Source: an uncultured Gammaproteobacteria bacterium (GTDB lineage: Bacteria > Pseudomonadota > Gammaproteobacteria > Pseudomonadales > Pseudohongiellaceae). From it: a stretch of 64,000 nt of DNA. Of this stretch, positions 2,886 to 28,243 are shown one piece after another. The notes below the pieces were generated by a model. It searched no databases. It was given only the letters and a program-made list of their open reading frames with translations, and had not been told where the DNA came from. Location of the stretch: the NCBI GenBank assembly GCA_903853385.1, contig CAINTJ010000142.1:1-64000 (forward strand). The letters are read 5' to 3'. How positions within the stretch are numbered: the stretch's first letter is position 1; the number at the start of each line of letters is the position of its first letter. A program made the translations under genes and the position numbers.

Positions 2886-4949
2886 ATGAGCACGCCCACA
2901 GCCATTTATCTGAATGTTGGCCCCTACCTGGAAATCACTTCCGGTATCAGCACAATATTCTCTTTCAGCGACGGCGTTGTGAAACTGACCGGACCACTTG
3001 GCGCCGGCAAATCCGCACTTTTGCTGGAACTGGTCAAGGAGCTGCGCGCCGAGAATTTCGAGGTTGTGGAGTTCAAGGTTCCGCCCAAATCCGTTGAAGA
3101 TTTGCAGTCCACCCTCATCAGAAAATTCAAACTGGGCGCCGACCTCAGTTTCAGAAAATCGCTGATCCGCTACCTCACCATCAAACCCAGGGACCTGCAA
3201 AAGCTGATCCTAATCATCGACGATGCCCATCAGATGAACGTCGAAGCCCTGGCCGGTCTGCATGCACTGCGAGATCTCGAAAACAATGGCCAGGCACTGA
3301 TCAGCATCCTGCTTTGTGGTGACAAGACCCTCAATGCCCATCTGGCCCAACCCGAGCTGGCAGCACTGCAGGCCGACATCAGCCTGAATTACTCCCTCAA
3401 TCCTCTGGAAGAAAGAGAACTCAGCGACTTTTGCACTGGCTATCTGCAACAGGCAGGCAAAGGCCGCATCGCGCTCGATGAAAGATATTTGGAAGCTTTG
3501 CAGGAGCGGACGCGCGGCCTGCCGGCAGAAATTCTCGGCGAGCTGGCGGCCATGCTGTCTGATCCCCAGTTGTTGCTGCAGCACAAAGGCTCTGATTTAC
3601 CCCCGGAAAAGGCGGACGCAGAGCCCGCAATGATTGGGCAAATGTTCAGCTCCATTACCACCCAGATCAACAATATCCCGCCGGATACCAAGCGCTGGCT
3701 CAAGCCCACCTTCAATACGATGCTTGCGGTTGCGGCTGCCAGTACCGTCTACATCTACTACCCCAAAATACTGGCGCTCTACGGCGAGTACATGCATGCC
3801 CCCACCACCAATAGCCAGCCTCAAATTGCCGCCACCCCGGCGCCCGTGCCCCAACCCACCAGGGCTACCTCCCAACCGGTAGTTGCCGCCGTCGAGGCAG
3901 TGCCAGCCCCGCCACCAGCTCCAGCGGCGGCACCCGCCCTTGCGCCCGCACGTCCCGCTACTCCGGCGCCAACCCTGGCAGCAACTGCTCCCGTAGCCCC
4001 TGTACAGGCCAACATCGCCACCGCCAACCCAGCAGATCTTGCCGCCGTAGTGAATCGATGGATGACGGCCTGGCAACAACAGGATGCAGATAAATACCTT
4101 GGCTTTTATCACACCGATTTTGCGTCGCTCTATCACGACAACCGTAGCAGCTGGCGCGACGATCGCGTGCGGAGCCTGACCAAACCGGCCCATATCGAAC
4201 TCGCCCTCAGTGATCTGGAAGTGGCGGCAACCGATCCTGCCGGTACCACCGTGCGGTTCCGGTTGAACTATCGGTCCCCTACTTATGCAGACAGCACCTT
4301 GAAAGAGCTGGTGTTAGGGCCGGATCTGGATGGGCAGTGGCGCATCCTGCGTGAATTGAACCTGGGCGTTGAAGTCCAGCCAGGCAGTCGTCTGGCAGCC
4401 GGCCAGAGCGCCTCGACTGCGCTACCCCGCCAGAGCGCCACCTCCAACACCACTGGCACCCGCATTGGCCAGCCCATGGTGATCCAGCCCAATGCCGAGG
4501 TGGCAGCGCTGCCAAACAACCGCAGCAACATCAACCAGTTCATCAGCAGTTGGCTGAACTCATGGCAGCACAAGGATCTCGACGGTTATTTCAGCCACTA
4601 CATTCCACAATTCAAAGCCCCCCTCATGGCGAGTGCGGACGAATGGCGGGATGACCGGACCACCAAAATCATCCGGCCGGCCGTCATCCAGCTGCAATTG
4701 GAAAGCATGGAACTGGTGAATGAGACCAGCGAGGGGGCCGTACTGCGTCTGACCCTGGCTTACCACTCCAGCTATTACGCGGATCGCACCCACAAGGAAT
4801 TGCGACTCCAGCGCGGCAGCAATGGCAATCTGCAGATTGTTGAAGAGAAAAACATCGCGGTAGAAACTTTGCCGCTGTCACGACTGCTGCCATCCAACAG
4901 TATGGCGATGGTTGAGCTGGCCCGCTCCATCACAGCCAACCAGCTCTGA
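2886..4949 (+). CDS. ExeA/MshM-like AAA ATPase with one membrane segment and two NTF2-like (Cds6-type) domains
   Basis: A 687-residue protein. Residues 1-230 are an AAA+ ATPase: Walker A GPLGAGKS (36-43), Walker B LILIIDDAH (107-115), and a C-terminal helical part. A single transmembrane helix follows (about 276-294), then a proline/alanine-rich linker (about 310-380), then two related domains (about 383-490 and 548-660). Each carries W..W, ..KYLGFYH / ..GYFSHY, WRDDR and a closing WRILREL / LQIVEE strand. The ATPase resembles ExeA/MshM/DamX-like envelope factors, and the repeated domain resembles the Cds6 domain of L,D-transpeptidase-type proteins. A role in cell-wall or secretion assembly is inferred, with the ATPase cytoplasmic and the repeats periplasmic. 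Confidence 0.75.
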   Translation: MSTPTAIYLNVGPYLEITSGISTIFSFSDGVVKLTGPLGAGKSALLLELVKELRAENFEVVEFKVPPKSVEDLQSTLIRKFKLGADLSFRKSLIRYLTIKPRDLQKLILIIDDAHQMNVEALAGLHALRDLENNGQALISILLCGDKTLNAHLAQPELAALQADISLNYSLNPLEERELSDFCTGYLQQAGKGRIALDERYLEALQERTRGLPAEILGELAAMLSDPQLLLQHKGSDLPPEKADAEPAMIGQMFSSITTQINNIPPDTKRWLKPTFNTMLAVAAASTVYIYYPKILALYGEYMHAPTTNSQPQIAATPAPVPQPTRATSQPVVAAVEAVPAPPPAPAAAPALAPARPATPAPTLAATAPVAPVQANIATANPADLAAVVNRWMTAWQQQDADKYLGFYHTDFASLYHDNRSSWRDDRVRSLTKPAHIELALSDLEVAATDPAGTTVRFRLNYRSPTYADSTLKELVLGPDLDGQWRILRELNLGVEVQPGSRLAAGQSASTALPRQSATSNTTGTRIGQPMVIQPNAEVAALPNNRSNINQFISSWLNSWQHKDLDGYFSHYIPQFKAPLMASADEWRDDRTTKIIRPAVIQLQLESMELVNETSEGAVLRLTLAYHSSYYADRTHKELRLQRGSNGNLQIVEEKNIAVETLPLSRLLPSNSMAMVELARSITANQL

Positions 4950-8661: not shown

Positions 8662-9864
8662 ATGGCAAAAATTACTGCAGGTATTGGTTGTTCCCACGTT
8701 CCCGCCATCGGCGCTGCTTTCGACCAGGGCTTGACCCAGGATCCGTACTGGAAGCCCTTGTTCGACGGCTATCCAGCCGCACAAGAGTGGATGCGCCAAC
8801 ACAAACCCGACGTTGCCATCATCGTCTACAACGACCATGGCAGCGCCATCACCCTGGAAACCATTCCGACTTTCGCCATCGGTGTGGCCGACGAATTCCA
8901 GCCGGCCGATGAAGGCTGGGGCCCGCGCAAAGTGCCGGTAGTCAAAGGTCACTCCGCACTGGCCTGGCATTTGGCAGAAACGCTGATCATCAACGAATTC
9001 GACATGTGTGTGATGAACAAACTGGATGTCGACCACGGTCTGACCATCCCGATGAACATCACTTGCGGTCTGGTTGATGAATGGCCCTTTGCCGTAATCC
9101 CGATTGCGGTGAACGTGGTGATGTTCCCGGTACCGAGCGGCGATCGCTGCTGGCGTCTGGGCGAAACCATTCGCAAAGCCGTGGAATCCTTCCCGGAAGA
9201 TCTGAAAGTAGTGGTGTTCGGCACTGGCGGCATGTCGCACCAGATTCACGGTGAGCGCTCCGGCATGATCAATACCAAGTTCGACACCGCCTTCCTCAAC
9301 GACCTGACGAAGAACCCGCAGCGTCTGCGCAAAATCAAGCATGAAGAATTTGTCACCGACAGCGGCGCCGAAGGCATCGAGATGGTGATGTGGATGGCCA
9401 TGCGCGGCGCGCTCGGCGATAACGTGCATGAAGTCTATCGCCACTACCACGTGCCAGCCTCCAATACGGCGGCTGCCGTGATCGTGCTGGAAACCGACGA
9501 CAAGAAGCCAAAGAGAAAGTCGGCAGCCAAGAAAAAAACCGCTGTGAAGAAGGCTGCAGTCAAGAAAGCTGTTAAGAAGCAAGTGGCGAAAAAAACACCT
9601 GCGACCAAGAAAGCCATAGTGAAGAAGCCGGCGAAGAAAACAGCAGTGAAGAAAAAGGCTGTGACAAAGAAACCAGTTGCCAAGAAGGCAGTTGCTAAGA
9701 AGGCAGTGGCTAAGAAGGCAGTGGCTAAGAAACCAGTTGCTAAGAAAGCAGCTGCTAAGAAAGCAGTGGCGAAGAAACCGGTAGCCAAGAAAGTAGCGGC
9801 AAAGAAAGTCGCGCCGAAAAAATCCGTGAAGAAATCCGCCAAGAAGAAAGCCGCTAAAAAGTAA
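8662..9864 (+). CDS. ligB: protocatechuate 4,5-dioxygenase beta subunit (LigB) with a long Lys/Ala-rich C-terminal tail
   Basis: The catalytic subunit of the extradiol dioxygenase that opens protocatechuate between C4 and C5 with O2 and Fe(II). Residues 1-280 match LigB closely: iron ligands H12 (GCSHVP), H59 (YNDHGS) and E240 (GIEMVMW), and catalytic H193 (GGMSHQ), all two positions off Sphingobium LigB after H12. Residues 281-400 are an added tail of PVAKKAVAKK-type units (53 Lys in 120 residues), like the tails of AlgP or histone-H1-like proteins. The tail is in the same frame with no stop or frameshift. Ordinary LigB ends near residue 300. The start is the ATG at 8662, 7 bp after ligA; the tail's role is unknown. 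Confidence 0.93.
   Translation: MAKITAGIGCSHVPAIGAAFDQGLTQDPYWKPLFDGYPAAQEWMRQHKPDVAIIVYNDHGSAITLETIPTFAIGVADEFQPADEGWGPRKVPVVKGHSALAWHLAETLIINEFDMCVMNKLDVDHGLTIPMNITCGLVDEWPFAVIPIAVNVVMFPVPSGDRCWRLGETIRKAVESFPEDLKVVVFGTGGMSHQIHGERSGMINTKFDTAFLNDLTKNPQRLRKIKHEEFVTDSGAEGIEMVMWMAMRGALGDNVHEVYRHYHVPASNTAAAVIVLETDDKKPKRKSAAKKKTAVKKAAVKKAVKKQVAKKTPATKKAIVKKPAKKTAVKKKAVTKKPVAKKAVAKKAVAKKAVAKKPVAKKAAAKKAVAKKPVAKKVAAKKVAPKKSVKKSAKKKAAKK
9661..9800 (+). repeat. in-frame 15-bp tandem repeats encoding the LigB tail
   Basis: Imperfect 15-bp units such as GTTGCTAAGAAGGCA and GTGGCTAAGAAACCA follow one another, each encoding a five-residue A/P-V-A-K-K block. Neighbouring units differ mainly at third codon positions, which suggests slippage growth followed by selection on the protein. 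The Lys/Ala-rich region as a whole runs from about 9502 to 9861. Confidence 0.85.
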
Positions 9865-21113: not shown

Positions 21114-21992
21114 ATGTGTGATTTTGATACGCAAAAAGATGCCGACCAATTTCTGAAGTCGCAAACGATGAGCCGTCGTCATTTCGGCGCGGTGACTGCC
21201 GGTGTAAGCCTGGCGATGATGCTGCCCGCCGTGGCTAACGCGCAGGACGTAACTGAAAGCGAAGTAATGATCAAAACACCAGACGGCACTGCCGACTGTT
21301 ATTTTGTGCATCCAAGCAAAGGCGCTTCTGCCGCTGTGCTGATCTGGCCCGACATCTTCGGCCTGCGCCCTGCGTTCCGTGCAATGGGCAAACGCCTGGC
21401 GCAAAGTGGCTACGCCGTGTTGGTTGTCAACCCGTTCTACCGTGGCGGCAAGGCGCCAGTGCTTAAAGAAGGTGTTGCCTTCAACGACCCCGACTTCCAG
21501 GCCAAAATCATGCCGCTGGCACAAGCACTCAATGCCACCACGCATGTAACCGATGCCAAAGCCTTTGTAGCCTGGCTGGATTCACAAGCGGCCGTCGATA
21601 CCAAGAAAAAGATCGGCACCACTGGCTACTGCATGGGCGGCCCCATGGTGATGCGCACCGCTGCTGCACTGCCTGACCGCATCGGCGCTGCCGGCATCTT
21701 CCACGGCGGCAACGGTCTTGCCACCAAAGACGCCCTCAGCCCGCATCTGCTGATTCCGCAAATGAAAGCCAGCTTCCTGGTGGCCGTGGCTGACAACGAC
21801 GACAAGCAAGACCCAACCGTGAAGGAAACCCTGAAAGCCGCCTTTGCCAAAGCCGGCCTTAAAAACGAAGTGGAAGTCTATGTAGGTGCACAGCACGGCT
21901 GGTGCCCGCCCGGTGGCGGCGCCTACAACGAAGCACTGGCTGAAAAAGCCTGGGCTCGCATGCTGGATATCTTCAAGCCTGCATTGGCTTGA
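21114..21992 (+). CDS. Tat-exported dienelactone-hydrolase-family protein, copy 2
   Basis: A 292-residue tandem paralogue of the preceding gene, 41 bp downstream, with its own AAGGGG ribosome site. It has a twin-arginine signal (MSRRHFGAVTAGVSLA), nucleophile Cys in TTGYCMGGPMV, Asp in AVADNDDKQDP and His in GAQHGWCPPGG. The start MCDFDTQKDADQF mirrors MCDQDTPQDFADH of copy 1. Divergence is spread along the whole length, so the duplication is not recent. A hairpin follows, closing the two-gene unit. Confidence 0.87.
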   Translation: MCDFDTQKDADQFLKSQTMSRRHFGAVTAGVSLAMMLPAVANAQDVTESEVMIKTPDGTADCYFVHPSKGASAAVLIWPDIFGLRPAFRAMGKRLAQSGYAVLVVNPFYRGGKAPVLKEGVAFNDPDFQAKIMPLAQALNATTHVTDAKAFVAWLDSQAAVDTKKKIGTTGYCMGGPMVMRTAAALPDRIGAAGIFHGGNGLATKDALSPHLLIPQMKASFLVAVADNDDKQDPTVKETLKAAFAKAGLKNEVEVYVGAQHGWCPPGGGAYNEALAEKAWARMLDIFKPALA

Positions 21993-22012
21993 TGCGGTAA
22001 AACTGATCGATC

Positions 22013-22040
22013 AAAGGGGCCGTCTACACAAGGCCCCTTT
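22013..22040 (+). terminator. terminator-like hairpin after the dienelactone hydrolase pair
   Basis: Nine-bp stem AAAGGGGCC/GGCCCCTTT with a 10-base loop, 20 bp after the stop and followed by GTTGTTT. It marks the left border of the AT-richer island. Confidence 0.75.
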
Positions 22041-22083
22041 GTTGTTTGGCCCGCCGCAAGCGGCAGAAACCAATGCCAATGCT

Positions 22084-22977
22084 ATGAAAAAGAATAGATA
22101 CGGATTATCGCGATACATACCCGAAGACATCGCATTAGAAGTGCGCAGACGATCGAAATTCGGCTGTGTTGTTTGTCGGTGTGCTGTGTATCAATACGAG
22201 CATATAGATCCTTCCTTTGCGCATGCGACCAAGCATGACCCAGAGAAAATATGTCTTTTATGTGGGGGATGTCACGACAAGGTAACCCGCAGAAGACTTT
22301 CAAAAGAAAGTGTCCAAGCTAAGTACTTGCAGGTTATGCAATCTAATGAAATACGTAGACCCTTCGAGGAACTCGACCTCGCGACGCAAAACATTAGCGT
22401 GAGCATGAGTACGGCAAAATTCGAGCACACTCAAAACTTAATACAAATTAACGGCCGTAAATTTCTTTCAATTACGCCACCAACTGAAGGCTCATCATTT
22501 CCTACTTTGAGTGGAATCTTTTGTGATCATAACGGTCAGGAAACGTTGAGAATTACTAACAACGTGTGGGAAGGCGCCATCAATGCGTGGGATATTCAAG
22601 TTGTATCAACACAAGTTTCCATTAGAACTGCCAATGGCCGTACTGCCCTTGAGTTTTTAATCGAACCGCCCGATAAAATAAAAATTAAAGAACTCAACAT
22701 GTATTTTGAGAATTGCCATCTTATATGTAACAAAGACGGACTACTTGTTGGGCGAGCACGAGGCAAGCGACGTACATATATAGGCGTCGGCAACTTTGAG
22801 TGCGGCCACGCAAAGATTGGGGTAGATATAGATTCTTCTTTTAAAAATATTATGCCTCGAGGTCTCAAAATAACGGGCGGCGAAGGTGTTTCTCTTGAGG
22901 GTACCGGGATACGAATCGCTGTCGGCGCGGGCATGATGTATGTAAACGATATAAACGTCTGGACTCATCAGGAGTAA
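22084..22977 (+). CDS. HNH-nuclease-like protein with unknown C-terminal domain
   Basis: A 297-residue protein. Residues 22-70 form an HNH/zinc module: C28-x2-C31, EHIDP (39-43, metal and catalytic His40) and C57LLC60GGCH64. The remaining 200 residues are strand-rich and unrecognised. The gene is clearly AT-richer than its surroundings and lies in an island with a protease and a toxin-antitoxin pair, which suggests horizontal transfer and possibly a defence role (inference). A longer in-frame start at 21886 overlaps the hydrolase and is rejected; the ATG at 22084 begins MKKNRYGLSRYIP. Confidence 0.75.
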   Translation: MKKNRYGLSRYIPEDIALEVRRRSKFGCVVCRCAVYQYEHIDPSFAHATKHDPEKICLLCGGCHDKVTRRRLSKESVQAKYLQVMQSNEIRRPFEELDLATQNISVSMSTAKFEHTQNLIQINGRKFLSITPPTEGSSFPTLSGIFCDHNGQETLRITNNVWEGAINAWDIQVVSTQVSIRTANGRTALEFLIEPPDKIKIKELNMYFENCHLICNKDGLLVGRARGKRRTYIGVGNFECGHAKIGVDIDSSFKNIMPRGLKITGGEGVSLEGTGIRIAVGAGMMYVNDINVWTHQE

Positions 22978-22989
22978 GGAATAGAAGGA

Positions 22990-23009
22990 AATGGTGGTCC
23001 GCCCCCATT
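22990..23009 (+). repeat. REP-like short palindromic element, copy 1
   Basis: AATGGTGGTCCGCCCCCATT, with AATGG/CCATT ends. It differs by one base from the copy at 34530-34549 and resembles minus-strand elements at 23902-23924 and 28244-28291. The GTGG tetranucleotide recalls the GTRG foot of known REP families. Confidence 0.5.
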
Positions 23010-23077
23010 ACTCCACATGTGCTAATCGTGATGTTCGGAAGGCCATAGAGGATAATACACAGCAGCTACTATTCCAA

Positions 23078-23866
23078 TCAGTCGAATAAGTCTTTGAGGT
23101 GCTTCCCGAGCGTGGCATAGCCATTCTTCGATTTGTGCCATTCAATAAAGACGCCAGCTAGATAAGGATTCTCAATGACTTCATTAGGGAAGAACCACAG
23201 GCCTCCACCGCTCACTCCTCGCAGACCAACACCGAACTCATGCAACTCCCCCTCTACATAAACCTTCTGATACTTAAAACCTAGGAAGTCAGTCGTATTC
23301 ATGCCGTCAGCCTTGAAGTCCAACGCCTGGTCAATAGAGACAATTACTGAAAGGATGCCGGTACGCTTTGGTTCACCACGAGGGTTTACATCTCGCAGCT
23401 TATTCTGTGACACCGGGTAGCCTGCAAGGAAGTAATGGCCGCGCATCGCAGGGGCATACCCCCTTGAAATTTTTTCAAACGGAAAAAATGTAAGACCATC
23501 AAGCAACTTCGGAATCGGAAGAACCGCAAGGTCTAGCGCCGCAGTTGTATGGAAACGCCAATGCGTATTGTATGCTAGCGGCAGCAGGTACACGCTTCCG
23601 GGTGTATCAATGTCTCCGGTGCCGATAAATATCTCACGGCCCTCATTTCCGAGCAGACGTTTAATCGTGTGCTCTGCGGTGCATAGGTAGTATTTCCCAT
23701 TTTTCTGAACCGCAATGCCTGTTCCCCACAAGTCCAACAGCCCAGGCCTATCGGACTCGGCAAGTATTGGAAACATATAATTACCGACTGATGTCAGGTA
23801 CTCCTGCGCTCGCATGCGCAAATGTTCGTCTCTTGTGATAATCAGTCGTTCATCATCGTCGGTCAT
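23078..23866 (-). CDS. trypsin-like serine protease domain protein
   Basis: A 262-residue protein with a chymotrypsin-like fold. It contains WGTGIAVQKNGKYYLCTAEHT with catalytic His66, DLAVLPI with Asp112, and LRGVSGGGLW with Ser219. There is no signal peptide, so it should act in the cytoplasm, as do the trypsin-like peptidases found beside phage-defence genes. Codon use and base composition are intermediate. It lies between the HNH gene (convergent) and the toxin-antitoxin genes (same strand, 58 bp upstream). Its target is unknown; degeneration is not evident because all three triad residues are present. Confidence 0.75.
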   Translation of the reverse strand: MTDDDERLIITRDEHLRMRAQEYLTSVGNYMFPILAESDRPGLLDLWGTGIAVQKNGKYYLCTAEHTIKRLLGNEGREIFIGTGDIDTPGSVYLLPLAYNTHWRFHTTAALDLAVLPIPKLLDGLTFFPFEKISRGYAPAMRGHYFLAGYPVSQNKLRDVNPRGEPKRTGILSVIVSIDQALDFKADGMNTTDFLGFKYQKVYVEGELHEFGVGLRGVSGGGLWFFPNEVIENPYLAGVFIEWHKSKNGYATLGKHLKDLFD

Positions 23867-23901
23867 TTCCCGGCTTCCTAGGTTTCAAACTTCCAAAAAA
23901 T

Positions 23902-23924
23902 AATTTGGGACCTACCACACTTTT
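23902..23924 (-). repeat. REP-like short element, copy 2
   Basis: On the minus strand it reads AAAAGTGTGGTAGGTCCC then AAATT, sharing GTGGTA.GTCCC with the other copies. It abuts the stop of the antitoxin gene. Confidence 0.4.
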
Positions 23925-24236
23925 CTAAGCTACTCTGGAAGTCAATCCTCTAGCGGGCGCCTTTGTTGTAAGCTCAATTCCCAGCGCCTTCATTACAGCC
24001 AAAGTCGTTTTCAATGTGGGGTTGCCGTTCTCGCTGAAGGAGCGGTAAAGCTGTTCCCGGGAAAGACCAGTTTGACCAGCAATCTGCGCCATACCCTTTG
24101 CACGAGCTACCACACCAAGCGCGTGCGCGATGTAGGCGGCATCGCTCGTTTTAAATGCTTCAGCCATGAAGATCGCAATGGCTTTGTGGGTGGTTAAATC
24201 CTCGGCAGGATCGTAAGCCGTCAGTTTTTTAGCCAT
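23925..24236 (-). CDS. HigA-type antitoxin (XRE-like DNA-binding protein)
   Basis: A 103-residue antitoxin with a helix-turn-helix: LGVVARAKGMAQIAGQTG, SREQLYRSFS and PTLKTTLAVMKALGIEL. The start MAKKLTAYDPAEDL is typical of the addiction-module antidote family that follows Gp49/HigB-type toxins. It should neutralise the toxin and repress the operon through the palindrome at 24580-24601. Its own ATG at 24236 is kept, so free antitoxin can be made even though the upstream frame now reads straight into it. Confidence 0.83.
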   Translation of the reverse strand: MAKKLTAYDPAEDLTTHKAIAIFMAEAFKTSDAAYIAHALGVVARAKGMAQIAGQTGLSREQLYRSFSENGNPTLKTTLAVMKALGIELTTKAPARGLTSRVA

Positions 24237-24536
24237 GTCATTCACTCCATTCTTCAGCCAGCCGCAAGGCGGTTTTGTTTTGATGCCCTTCTTTTGCGAG
24301 CTTTTATCGCCACCACACAGCAGCACGATGATCGCGTCGCCTTTCTTCTGAAAGTAAACGCGGTATCCAGAACCATAGTGAATGCGTAACTCGCTAATCC
24401 CCTTGCCTACTGGCTCTACATCACCCGCCAATCCAAAAGCCAAGCGGTCGAGACGTGAGGCGATCAACGCGCGGGCGCGCTCGTCCTTGAGTCGATGCCT
24501 CCATTTCCTGAAGGTCTCGGTTTGCCTTAGTTCCAT
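23925..24536 (-). CDS. fused toxin-antitoxin ORF: RelE/HigB-like toxin frameshifted into the antitoxin
   Basis: Residues 1-88 are a RelE/ParE-superfamily (Gp49-like, HigB) mRNA-cleaving toxin: FRKWRHRLKDERARALIASR, then VGKGISELRIHYGSGYRVYF and VLLCGGDKSSQKKGIK. After IK the family expects a tail like TALRLAEEW and a stop. That tail exists in another frame (ALRLAEEWSE and TGA at 24238-24240) but is missed because of a tandem AAAAC-AAAAC duplication (24272-24281). The frame instead stays open through a 12-residue junction (PPCGWLKNGVND) into the antitoxin ATG. The start is taken as ATG 24536 because the promoter places the transcript start near 24543; ATG 24545 and GTG 24551 are in frame. Confidence 0.75.
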   Translation of the reverse strand: MELRQTETFRKWRHRLKDERARALIASRLDRLAFGLAGDVEPVGKGISELRIHYGSGYRVYFQKKGDAIIVLLCGGDKSSQKKGIKTKPPCGWLKNGVNDMAKKLTAYDPAEDLTTHKAIAIFMAEAFKTSDAAYIAHALGVVARAKGMAQIAGQTGLSREQLYRSFSENGNPTLKTTLAVMKALGIELTTKAPARGLTSRVA

Positions 24537-24549
24537 CCCGGACATGGCC

Positions 24550-24601
24550 ACTGTAGTTTAAAGACTACTTTCAGTCAATATTGTGGCGAATTCGCCACAA
24601 T
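24550..24601 (-). promoter_or_regulatory. toxin-antitoxin promoter and autoregulatory palindrome
   Basis: The leftward promoter has -35 TTGACT (24573-24578), a 17-bp spacer and -10 TACAGT (24550-24555). Directly upstream is a perfect 22-bp palindrome (24580-24601), halves ATTGTGGCGAA and TTCGCCACAAT, a likely antitoxin operator. A second small symmetry, GTAGT/ACTAC, lies in the spacer. The predicted transcript is nearly leaderless. Confidence 0.75.
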
Positions 24602-24819
24602 TAAAACCGGGGCTGTAGACGGATTCCGTGGAATTGACGGGCTCCTGAATAATCTCAATTTGCATTGATTGCCTCCTCCTTGAATGGCAATCGCCAACAT
24701 AGTACAGAAATCAGAATCTCGCAGTGTTAGTCTATTTGACACAATCAAGTGGTTAAGCGTGTGAATACGCATCTTCTTGATCCCGCTTGGTTACTTGTAA
24801 ATTAAAAGGAGAGGAAGGG

Positions 24820-25761
24820 ATGTTAAAATTGGTGATGGTTGTTTCAGGCATGATGCTGGCACTTATGTTGTCAGGCAAAGCCACGGCGGCAGCGTGTGAC
24901 CGCACCTGTCTCTACGGATTCCTCGACGCCTATCTGGCGGCGATCGATGCGCGCAATCCCGCCAAACTGCCACTGGCGAAGGGAGTGCGCTTTACCGAAA
25001 ACGGTGTCGAAATGAAATTTCCGGACGGTATGTGGAATTCAGTGGACGGGCGCGGCGATTACGACCTGCGCTTTGCCGATGAGAAAGAGGGCCAGGTGGG
25101 CATATACACCGTGGTCACGGAAAATGGCAACCCGTCCATCCTGGCCTTGCGCATGAAAGTGGTCGACGCCAGGATCACCGAGATCGAAACCATCATGGGC
25201 CGCTACGAAGAAGGTCGGGACTTTCCCAGCCCGTCTCCGCAAAAGCTCTATGTCCGGCCCATCCTCCATGACAAGGTGCCAGTAGAAATGCGCACCTCAC
25301 GTGCCGCGATGATTGCGGCAGCCAACGGCTATTTCGATTCATTGCAACTCAATGACGGCACGCTGCATACCGTGTTTGACCCACGCTGCGACAGGATTGA
25401 GAACGGCGTTGAAACCACCAACAACCCGGAGCGCGCCAAAACAGTCAGCGCTTTCTATGCGCTGGGCTGCGAGCAACAGTTCAAACTGGGGCTGTATCGC
25501 TATGATGATCGTCTGCGGGCGCGGCGCTTCACGCTGGTGGATGAAGAACGCGGCTTGGTATTGACCTCCGGTTTCATCGACCATATCGGCAAGTTGCTGG
25601 AATTCAAACTGACCGACGGCACCACGCGCAAGACCAACTACCGCACGCCCCACACCTATGAGTTGATGGAACTGTTCAAAATCATAAACGGCAAAATTGC
25701 CCAGGTGGAGGCGGTATTCATCACCGTTCCCTACAACATGCAATCGCCCTGGGACAAGTAA
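24820..25761 (+). CDS. exported protein with two SnoaL-like domains
   Basis: A 313-residue protein with a signal peptide (MLKLVMVVSGMMLALML, cleavage near KATA-AAC). Two NTF2/SnoaL-like halves follow: CDRTCLYGFLDAYLAAIDARNP to about residue 150, and RAAMIAAANGYFDSLQLNDG to about 305. The second half ends HTYELMELFKIINGKIAQVEAVF. CDRTCL and FDPRCDRIENGVE may bear a disulphide. The start ATG 24820 has GGAGAGGAAGG. The function is unknown; exported SnoaL-like proteins recur near quinoprotein genes in this window. Confidence 0.75.
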   Translation: MLKLVMVVSGMMLALMLSGKATAAACDRTCLYGFLDAYLAAIDARNPAKLPLAKGVRFTENGVEMKFPDGMWNSVDGRGDYDLRFADEKEGQVGIYTVVTENGNPSILALRMKVVDARITEIETIMGRYEEGRDFPSPSPQKLYVRPILHDKVPVEMRTSRAAMIAAANGYFDSLQLNDGTLHTVFDPRCDRIENGVETTNNPERAKTVSAFYALGCEQQFKLGLYRYDDRLRARRFTLVDEERGLVLTSGFIDHIGKLLEFKLTDGTTRKTNYRTPHTYELMELFKIINGKIAQVEAVFITVPYNMQSPWDK

Positions 25762-25808
25762 TGGGGAGGGGAGCGGACGGCAGGATGTGTTGATTACATC
25801 GAGCTGTT

Positions 25809-27314
25809 CTAGAACGGAAAGCCGCGCGGTTCCCGTTGAATTGAAATCCATTTCACTGTCGTGAACTCCTCAAACACCCAGTCGCCGCCAAAGCGGCCAC
25901 TGCCTGAGCATTTCTCACCACCGAAGGGCATGTGGGGTTCTTCGTTTACTGACTGATCGTTGACATGGATCATGCCAGTGTGGATCTGATGGGCCACAGC
26001 AAGGCCATGGTCGATGGAGCCGGAGAATACCGAACCACTCAAACCAAACGGCGTGCTGTTGGCAATGTCGATGGCTTGCTGCTCACTGTCGAAAGCTAAT
26101 ACCGGTGCTACCGGGCCGAAGATTTCGTTTTTCGCCACCGCCATGTCCTGGGTCACATTGGTGAGGATGTAGGGGTACACCAGATTCCCTTCGATCTTGC
26201 CTTGCAGTTCAATGGTGGCGCCTTCTTTAACACTCTGTTCGATCAGGGCCTTCACTTTTTCTGCCTGGACATGATTGATCAGTGGTCCGATAAAGGTATC
26301 GGGTTTCGCCGGATTGCCCACTTTCATCAGCTGCACCTTGGCTTTCAGCAAACGCACAAATTCCGGGTAAATTTTGCGATCCACTACCATGCGGTTTACC
26401 GACAGGCAGATTTGCCCCTGATGCAGGAAGCGACCAAAGGCCGCCGCAGAAGCGGCCTGATTTACATCGGCATCTCCCAGCACGATCATCACGTTGTTGC
26501 CACCCAGTTCCAGAATGGTTTTTTTCATGTGCTCGCTGGCGACCCTGCCCACATGCTGGCCGGCGCGCGTGGAACCGGTAAAAGAAATCAGGCGCGGGAT
26601 GGGGTGCTCGATAAAGGCATCGCCCACCTCATTCAGATCGGCTACCACCATGTTCAATACGCCGGCGGGCAGACCGGCAGCGGCAAAGGCTGCCACCAGT
26701 ATTGAGCCACCTGACAGCAGGCTCTGGCTGTCGGGTTTCAATACCACGGCATTGCCGGTGGCAATGGCAGCCGCCACTGAACGGGCCGACAGTACCAACG
26801 GAAAATTCCAGGGAGACACAACCCCCACTACACCGAGCGGCAGGTGCACTACGGTATTTTCCTTGCCCGGCAGGAAGGAAGCATGGGTGGTGGTGGCCAT
26901 TTTGTCGGGAAACGACAGGCTGTGCGCCAGTGTGCCAATGGTGGCCATTACTTCAACCTGCGCCTTGGGGAAGGTGCTGCCGGTTTCGGCAATCAGCAAC
27001 TGGATAAAAGCTTCCTGATTGGCGGCCAGATAGTCCATGGCTTTCTGGATAATGGCCCGCTTTTCTGCGGCAGGCACTTTAGCCCAGGCTGGCTGGGCTT
27101 TGCTGGCCGCTACATAAGCGGCATCAATGTCAGACTTGTCGGCCAGCCGGATCTGCGCCAGCACTTGCTGGTTGTAGGGGTTCACATCCTGGTAGACAGT
27201 TTTGCTGTGCCCTTCCACCCAGGCGCCATTGATATATTGCTTGCTCAGTTCTGAGTATTTCATGGGAGTGCTCGCTTCGTTAGTGAGTTTGGTTTTGCCG
27301 ATGGATGCATCCAT
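25809..27314 (-). CDS. NAD(P)-dependent aldehyde dehydrogenase (vanillin/benzaldehyde dehydrogenase-like)
   Basis: An aldehyde dehydrogenase superfamily enzyme of about 500 residues. It has the cofactor loop SPWNFPLVLS, FTGSTRAGQHVG, general base Glu in ILELGGNN, nucleophile Cys in HQGQICLSVNRM, and the closing PFGGEKCSGSGRFGG. Overall it resembles the benzaldehyde/vanillin dehydrogenase group, which would fit the aromatic setting; this is inference. ATG 27314 has an AGGAG site and is preferred, although the conserved part starts at MKYSELSKQYINGAWVEG (ATG 27263). It lies 12 bp after the NmrA-type gene in one operon. Confidence 0.9.
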   Translation of the reverse strand: MDASIGKTKLTNEASTPMKYSELSKQYINGAWVEGHSKTVYQDVNPYNQQVLAQIRLADKSDIDAAYVAASKAQPAWAKVPAAEKRAIIQKAMDYLAANQEAFIQLLIAETGSTFPKAQVEVMATIGTLAHSLSFPDKMATTTHASFLPGKENTVVHLPLGVVGVVSPWNFPLVLSARSVAAAIATGNAVVLKPDSQSLLSGGSILVAAFAAAGLPAGVLNMVVADLNEVGDAFIEHPIPRLISFTGSTRAGQHVGRVASEHMKKTILELGGNNVMIVLGDADVNQAASAAAFGRFLHQGQICLSVNRMVVDRKIYPEFVRLLKAKVQLMKVGNPAKPDTFIGPLINHVQAEKVKALIEQSVKEGATIELQGKIEGNLVYPYILTNVTQDMAVAKNEIFGPVAPVLAFDSEQQAIDIANSTPFGLSGSVFSGSIDHGLAVAHQIHTGMIHVNDQSVNEEPHMPFGGEKCSGSGRFGGDWVFEEFTTVKWISIQREPRGFPF

Positions 27315-27326
27315 GTCACCGGCTCC

Positions 27327-28202
27327 TCAGGCGCTGCCGTCGCGCACCGATTCCAGGAATTCCCGCATCGTGCGGGCTGGCCGCCCGGTAATCTCGCGGT
27401 AATCGGCAGTCACGCGGTCGAATTCGCCAGCCTCGATTGCCAGCATTGTTCCCACCATGCTCATCGAAAGCTCCAGCGGCATGCCCCACTTCTTGTTGAC
27501 GTAGTACGGCCAGTCGGCAGCCGCGACGGCCTGGTAGCGCACCGGCTTGCCGAATACCTCAGACATAAGTGCCGCGATCTCACCCATCGAGTAGGTGCGC
27601 TCCATGGTCTCGGAATACGTCCGCCCGGATGGCTCATCGCGCATCAAAACCTGCGCCGCCGAGATGCCGAGATCCGCCCGCGCCACGTAGGCGCAGCGGG
27701 CTTCACCGCCTGCTCTGGTCAAAACGCCGGTGGCGAGGGTTTCTTCTAGGTCGCCGATCAGCACATCGGCATAGAGGGCGTGTCGCAGAATGGTGAAGCC
27801 CAGACCGGAGGCGCGGATCGCCTGCTCAGTGGGCAAGTGCACGAGGCGGCTGTGCTCCACCTGCGGCGATTCCGCATTGAGGAAGCTGGGGTAGACAACA
27901 TGGCGCACGCCCGCCGCGCGGGCTGCTTCCAGCGCAGTGGTATTTTGCCGCAGGCGCACGTCGTTGGTGTCGTAGGTGGGAATGAACAGCGCCTTGGCAA
28001 TGCCCTGCAGTGCGCCACGCATCGATGCCGGATCGCCGAAATCGGCGTGACGCACGCTGACACCCTGTGCAGCCAGCTCGCGCGCGAAGTCAGAGTCCAC
28101 GTTGCGTGTGCCGACCGCCAGCGAACCGGCCTGCCCTGCCGCCAGAATGGACTTGATGACCGCGCGGCCAAACTGCCCGTTTGCTCCAGATACGAAAATC
28201 AT
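27327..28202 (-). CDS. NmrA-like NAD(P)-binding reductase
   Basis: A 291-residue atypical short-chain dehydrogenase (NmrA/quinone-oxidoreductase 2 type). The nucleotide-binding motif GANGQFGRAV is at residues 6-15, followed by VSVRHADFGDPASM, HVVYPSFLN and FTILRHALYADV. There is no classical YxxxK catalytic pair; NmrA relatives act as quinone reductases or redox sensors. It is transcribed with the aldehyde dehydrogenase 12 bp downstream. A second member of the family is at 48672-49592. Confidence 0.85.
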   Translation of the reverse strand: MIFVSGANGQFGRAVIKSILAAGQAGSLAVGTRNVDSDFARELAAQGVSVRHADFGDPASMRGALQGIAKALFIPTYDTNDVRLRQNTTALEAARAAGVRHVVYPSFLNAESPQVEHSRLVHLPTEQAIRASGLGFTILRHALYADVLIGDLEETLATGVLTRAGGEARCAYVARADLGISAAQVLMRDEPSGRTYSETMERTYSMGEIAALMSEVFGKPVRYQAVAAADWPYYVNKKWGMPLELSMSMVGTMLAIEAGEFDRVTADYREITGRPARTMREFLESVRDGSA

Positions 28203-28243
28203 TGCGACTCCTCATTTTTTTCCGATTCTAGCACCCAAGTAAC

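Follow-up and report, generated by a model that had tools for sequence, protein, structure and literature searches.

A HI1419/HI1420-type toxin-antitoxin locus with a toxin probably inactivated by a 5-bp tandem duplication and a retained antitoxin

One open reading frame at this locus joins a RelE/HigB-like toxin to its antitoxin, which raises the question of whether it encodes a new single-chain protein or is what remains of an ordinary two-gene operon. The locus was analysed within a stretch of 64,000 nucleotides (the window, to which all positions below refer; features are listed in Table 1). It is proposed that the locus is a type II operon of the HI1419/HI1420 kind, in which the toxin was inactivated through a 5-bp tandem duplication and the antitoxin was kept, an event of a known kind; we give this reading a probability of roughly 0.82.

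The preliminary description had named the locus a toxin-antitoxin pair, and the family assignments bear this out. In the fused protein TIGR02683 matches residues 7-92 (E 2.6e-35) and TIGR02684 matches residues 109-196 (E 1.6e-35); the Pfam family dnstrm_HI1420 also matches, and Gp49 falls just below its cut-off. The toxin scores 120.7 bits against TIGR02683 (cut-off 62.85), covering profile positions 2-87 of 95 with the end absent, and the antitoxin scores 121.2 bits against TIGR02684 (cut-off 53.7). Instead of two separate genes with a stop codon ending the toxin, there is a single open frame encoding the toxin core, KPPCGWLKNGVND and the antitoxin, the linker running from the core into the antitoxin being PPCGWLKNGVND. 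The module is present as a single copy in its 2.95-Mb genome, and the locus was not found in any other genome of that species.

Table 1. Features of the toxin-antitoxin locus (window positions).
Feature	Position	Strand	Evidence
Fused ORF (toxin core, linker and antitoxin), 208 codons from GTG	23925..24551	minus	TIGR02683 and TIGR02684 matches
Antitoxin, HI1420-type helix-turn-helix, own ATG intact	23925..24236	minus	TIGR02684, E 2.6e-36; all 45 invariant columns unchanged
Toxin tail ALRLAEEWSE-TGA left in the -1 frame, normally the conserved last part of the C-terminal helix	24238..24270	minus	Conserved family tail
GGAG, Shine-Dalgarno-like, 8 nt ahead of the antitoxin ATG	24245..24248	minus	Read from the sequence
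AAAAC-AAAAC tandem duplication, +5 frame shift	24272..24281	minus	Sequence; spacing versus relatives
Toxin core (MELRQTETF...GGDKSSQKKGIKTK), RelE/HigB, HI1419/Gp49-like	24273..24536	minus	TIGR02683, E 3.8e-36; fold comparison with the closest intact relative as query
Sigma-70-like promoter TTGACT-17-TACAGT, overlapping the operator	24550..24578	minus	Consensus match only; 0.8 by chance in shuffles
Operator-like palindrome GTAGTCTTTAAACTAC, upstream of the toxin	24553..24568	minus	Counterpart GTAGTYTATAAACTAC in relatives

On the minus strand the two AAAAC units stand in tandem (AAAACAAAAC), and the sequence across them reads GGC ATC AAA ACA AAA CCG CCT. Between the conserved GGDK lysine codon and the antitoxin ATG lie 66 nt, whereas 38 of 55 two-gene relatives have exactly 61 nt, indicating that the duplication is a +5 change; comparison with these sequences makes it well supported as the derived state. 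Just past the duplication the -1 frame reads ...KTALRLAEEWSE and then stops, its TGA (24240-24238) lying one base ahead of the antitoxin ATG at 24236; in relatives the usual toxin tail ...DIKTAKRLAEEWSE is followed by TGA-N-ATG. Both the duplication and the toxin tail that is whole in another frame, as first noticed in the preliminary description, are therefore confirmed. Perfect 2x5-base tandem pairs number 73 in the window against 64.5 expected, and such pairs are also present at the junctions of four intact relatives. Judged by these comparisons, the AAAAC duplication is unremarkable per se, and what goes beyond chance is the combination of an exact +5 spacing with an intact, family-matching tail in a different frame.

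Through the frameshift the last 10 residues of the toxin (residues 88-97) are replaced, leaving its C-terminal helix incomplete. Ala88, the residue at the frameshift, is invariant in all 65 aligned relatives, among which the Leu, Ala and Trp of the tail are conserved in 59, 55 and 50, respectively. In the AlphaFold2 model of the intact L100 toxin (about 82% identical; mean pLDDT 88.5 overall), residues 78-96 form one confident helix. The model of the fused protein, which is a guide only (mean 73.6, built on only 27 sequences), retains the toxin core and the helix-turn-helix part; the helix is gone, and residues 76-100 have pLDDT values below 50. With the closest intact relative as the query, the closest solved folds are Mycobacterium tuberculosis HigB1/HigB-TAC (7nbu, 7awk) and Escherichia coli RelE (4fxe); sequence comparison with the PDB gave weak matches to HigB1 only, and the HigB1/RelE relationship was confirmed by fold comparison. 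The long C-terminal helix of HigB-TAC, which is found in Gp49-like toxins, touches the P-site tRNA; the helix changes K113A and R117A lower toxicity, and K113A abolishes inhibition in vitro (PMC9098466). Since half of the C-terminal helix is lost here, and the HigB-TAC helix is needed for toxicity, the toxin should, by analogy, be inactive. Some residual activity is conceivable because the RelE fold exists without a long C-terminal helix, as in E. coli RelE, and the core sequence remains intact, catalytic-type basic residues included.

The toxin core carries the substitutions P56S and D84G at otherwise invariant sites, as found by a leave-one-out count of positions invariant among intact relatives (27 invariant columns; the numbers are small). 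In the same count 35 of 39 relatives have no deviation and only one has two or more. The toxin thus appears to have been released from constraint and the antitoxin not. Of the recent inactivation that was suggested earlier, the inactivation stands and its being recent is at best tentative: the tail is still readable, yet the core already has two changes at invariant sites. The same changes bear on whether the duplication is an error of sequencing or assembly, in which case the true sequence would hold one AAAAC and two genes in the usual arrangement. The assembly is a draft in 143 contigs and the -1 frame tail carries no further damage, as such an error would allow; two core changes at invariant sites versus none in the antitoxin are instead what would be seen if the toxin were already free of selection, and an error is considered unlikely. 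A clean 5-bp duplication outside a homopolymer would also be unusual as an error of short reads or of the consensus.

The locus keeps its putative control elements. The palindrome GTAGTYTATAAACTAC is found shortly upstream of the toxin start in relatives, 19 of 55 fitting the strict pattern and nearly all close relatives having variants, and its operator-like counterpart here sits between the -35- and -10-like hexamers. Because the ATG, the GGAG and this palindrome are kept, expression of the antitoxin and its autorepression are plausibly retained. A second, perfect 22-bp palindrome (ATTGTGGCGAATTCGCCACAAT; 24580-24601), unique in the window, lies upstream of the module and is absent from 56 related genomes; as a family operator it was rejected, being absent upstream of all 55 module relatives. 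Directly upstream of the toxin there is also a small ORF (24557-24665, minus strand; MQIEIIQEPVNSTESVYSPGFNCGEFATILTESSL) with a strong AGGAGGAGG ribosome-binding sequence, for which no convincing relative was found in 57 genomes.

That the fused frame is open at all can be traced to the relatives. The upstream openness of the antitoxin's own frame, counted from its ATG, was measured in every fetched relative; in 27 of the 41 close, intact two-gene pairs that have the common frame arrangement it extends 51-95 codons, inside the toxin gene. This alternative frame ends in a recurring peptide, for example AWLKHGANE directly before the antitoxin Met, and in L048-L051 LQSAWLKHGANE precedes MAEKL. 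The linker here is a peptide of this kind and, on this comparison, is what the toxin's last codons encode in the alternative frame. Since the antitoxin frame is already open upstream in relatives, a fused frame is the expected outcome of a frameshift in the right phase, and the fusion is best seen as a chance consequence of how the frames lie rather than as a new protein favoured by selection. Fused frames broken at other toxin positions occur in L034, L037, L038, L039 and L150, the last coming from a search unbiased toward fusions and having the N-terminal part of the toxin in the antitoxin frame; L042 and L044 are more heavily damaged. The junction seen here is not conserved across relatives, which are two-gene loci or, where fused, break elsewhere.

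The first list of relatives was ranked toward fused loci, the query having been the fused protein, and antitoxin-only searches were made as a correction. These drew on genome samples taken at the levels of class, order and phylum and yielded 38 loci with an identity of about 60% or above. The toxin is intact in 27 of them, absent from 7 and broken or partial in 4, and none of the 38 has a near-complete toxin core in fusion with its antitoxin. On these counts toxin loss is common here, and the present layout is rare and mechanical. A selected fusion was rejected on the grounds that the breaks vary by locus, the frame was open beforehand and no near-complete fused core occurs among the 38 antitoxin loci. 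Close antitoxins without a recognisable adjoining toxin gene were seen at L062, L085, L088, L089, L121, L127-L131 and L148, and solitary antitoxins of the HI1420 type seem to be frequent. In Xanthomonas, the toxin was lost in at least 7 of 26 systems versus one antitoxin loss (PMC4861877).

A functional single chain, in which the antitoxin acts in cis on the tethered toxin as proposed for EzeT/CapRel, would make the product a working HigB-HigA-type protein with the antitoxin tied to a weakened toxin, and L031 an independent case of the same trend. The frame is open throughout, both domains match their families, AlphaFold2 models the toxin core and the helix-turn-helix part, and L031 has a full-length toxin in frame with the antitoxin. 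The toxin domain here is nevertheless not intact, the conserved second half of its helix being replaced by a low-confidence linker with Pro-Pro; the fused loci break at different places and share no junction, the upstream open frame pre-existed, and the L031 toxin itself deviates at P56 and Y58. The proposal of a working chain, here and with L031 as its parallel, is accordingly judged improbable. L031 (positions 2998-3579, Solimicrobium silvestre S20-91), which has lost the toxin stop and gained one extra residue, departs from otherwise invariant sites by P56L and Y58F and has an antitoxin without deviation; from its sequence it is the better candidate for a working single-chain pair, despite the two toxin deviations.

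Two further mechanisms would make use of the repeat itself. The phase-variable switch by slippage that the preliminary description entertained is very hard to credit, for although losing one AAAAC would restore the frame relation of the relatives, there are two units only, 2x5 pairs are about as frequent in the window as chance predicts and no relative has a variable number of units. Hardly any more credible is ribosomal -1 frameshifting on A-AAA inside the repeat to give low-level toxin with its proper tail: the tail does lie in the -1 frame, an A precedes the Lys codon AAA so that re-pairing is possible, and a short CCGC-CTT-GCGG hairpin follows, but there is no canonical X-XXY-YYZ heptamer, the hairpin is almost directly on the slip site and no conservation supports it.

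The surroundings of the module are variable. Homology to the close genome G001 ends at 24723 and at 22050, the latter at a contig end of G001; DNA identity is 92-95% on one flank and about 82% on the opposite one. Since the homology ends on both sides and no copy of the module was found in G001, the module sits within a variable segment of at most 2.7 kb. The region 22050-24723 holds the module, a trypsin-like ORF (23078-23866) with a weak PADLOC match to LmuA (E 6.5e-5) and a long 363-aa ORF (21886-22977), and is possibly a small defence or mobile islet. The adjacent blocks 24723-25769 and 25779-28235 are exchanged in order in G001, a local rearrangement. Elsewhere in the window, at 9667-9808, a 15-base tandem repeat (AAGAAAGCAGTTGCT) lies within a gene and codes for a Lys/Ala-rich repeat of the histone H1-like kind.

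The 5-bp duplication shifts the frame and removes the second half of the toxin's C-terminal helix. Under the preferred reading of an inactivated toxin beside a kept antitoxin, the fused product, consisting of a truncated core, a flexible linker and the antitoxin, would be non-toxic. Free antitoxin would still be made from its own start and would probably still repress the promoter, and it might neutralise incoming homologous toxins. Chromosomal anti-addiction of this sort and the decay of toxin-antitoxin loci have been described (PMC2654758), and the state of the locus, with a disrupted toxin and an open and conserved antitoxin, is that of such decay. It would offer a clear example of toxin loss from a module that keeps its antitoxin. 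In this family, where much of the toxin gene is also open in the antitoxin frame, automated annotation can call "fused toxin-antitoxin proteins" from frameshifts, and claimed natural toxin-antitoxin fusions should be checked for an origin by a right-phase frameshift.

Among known systems, the locus is most directly compared with the HI1419/HI1420 module (TIGR02683 and TIGR02684), which it resembles in both domains, in the toxin-first order and in the position and sequence type of the operator; it differs in having a toxin without its final 10 residues that reads in frame into the antitoxin. It shares a broken toxin and an intact antitoxin with the decaying loci of Xanthomonas (PMC4861877) and with the ccdO157 and hok-sok copies cited in PMC2654758, from which it is distinguished by its lesion, a 5-bp tandem duplication resolved to single bases; one such case, in X. 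oryzae pv. oryzicola, is likewise a fused toxin-antitoxin gene (PMC4861877). The Phd-RelE fusion yb_293189 of Ralstonia eutropha, believed to be inactive because it is truncated (PMC4826407), also has a RelE-type toxin and an antitoxin in one chain, with an antitoxin of another family, Phd. EzeT, a functional zeta-type toxin with a cis-acting antitoxin domain (PMC4826407), again combines toxin and antitoxin in one polypeptide; its families are unrelated to those here, and it is functional, whereas the present locus is without a conserved element of its toxin.
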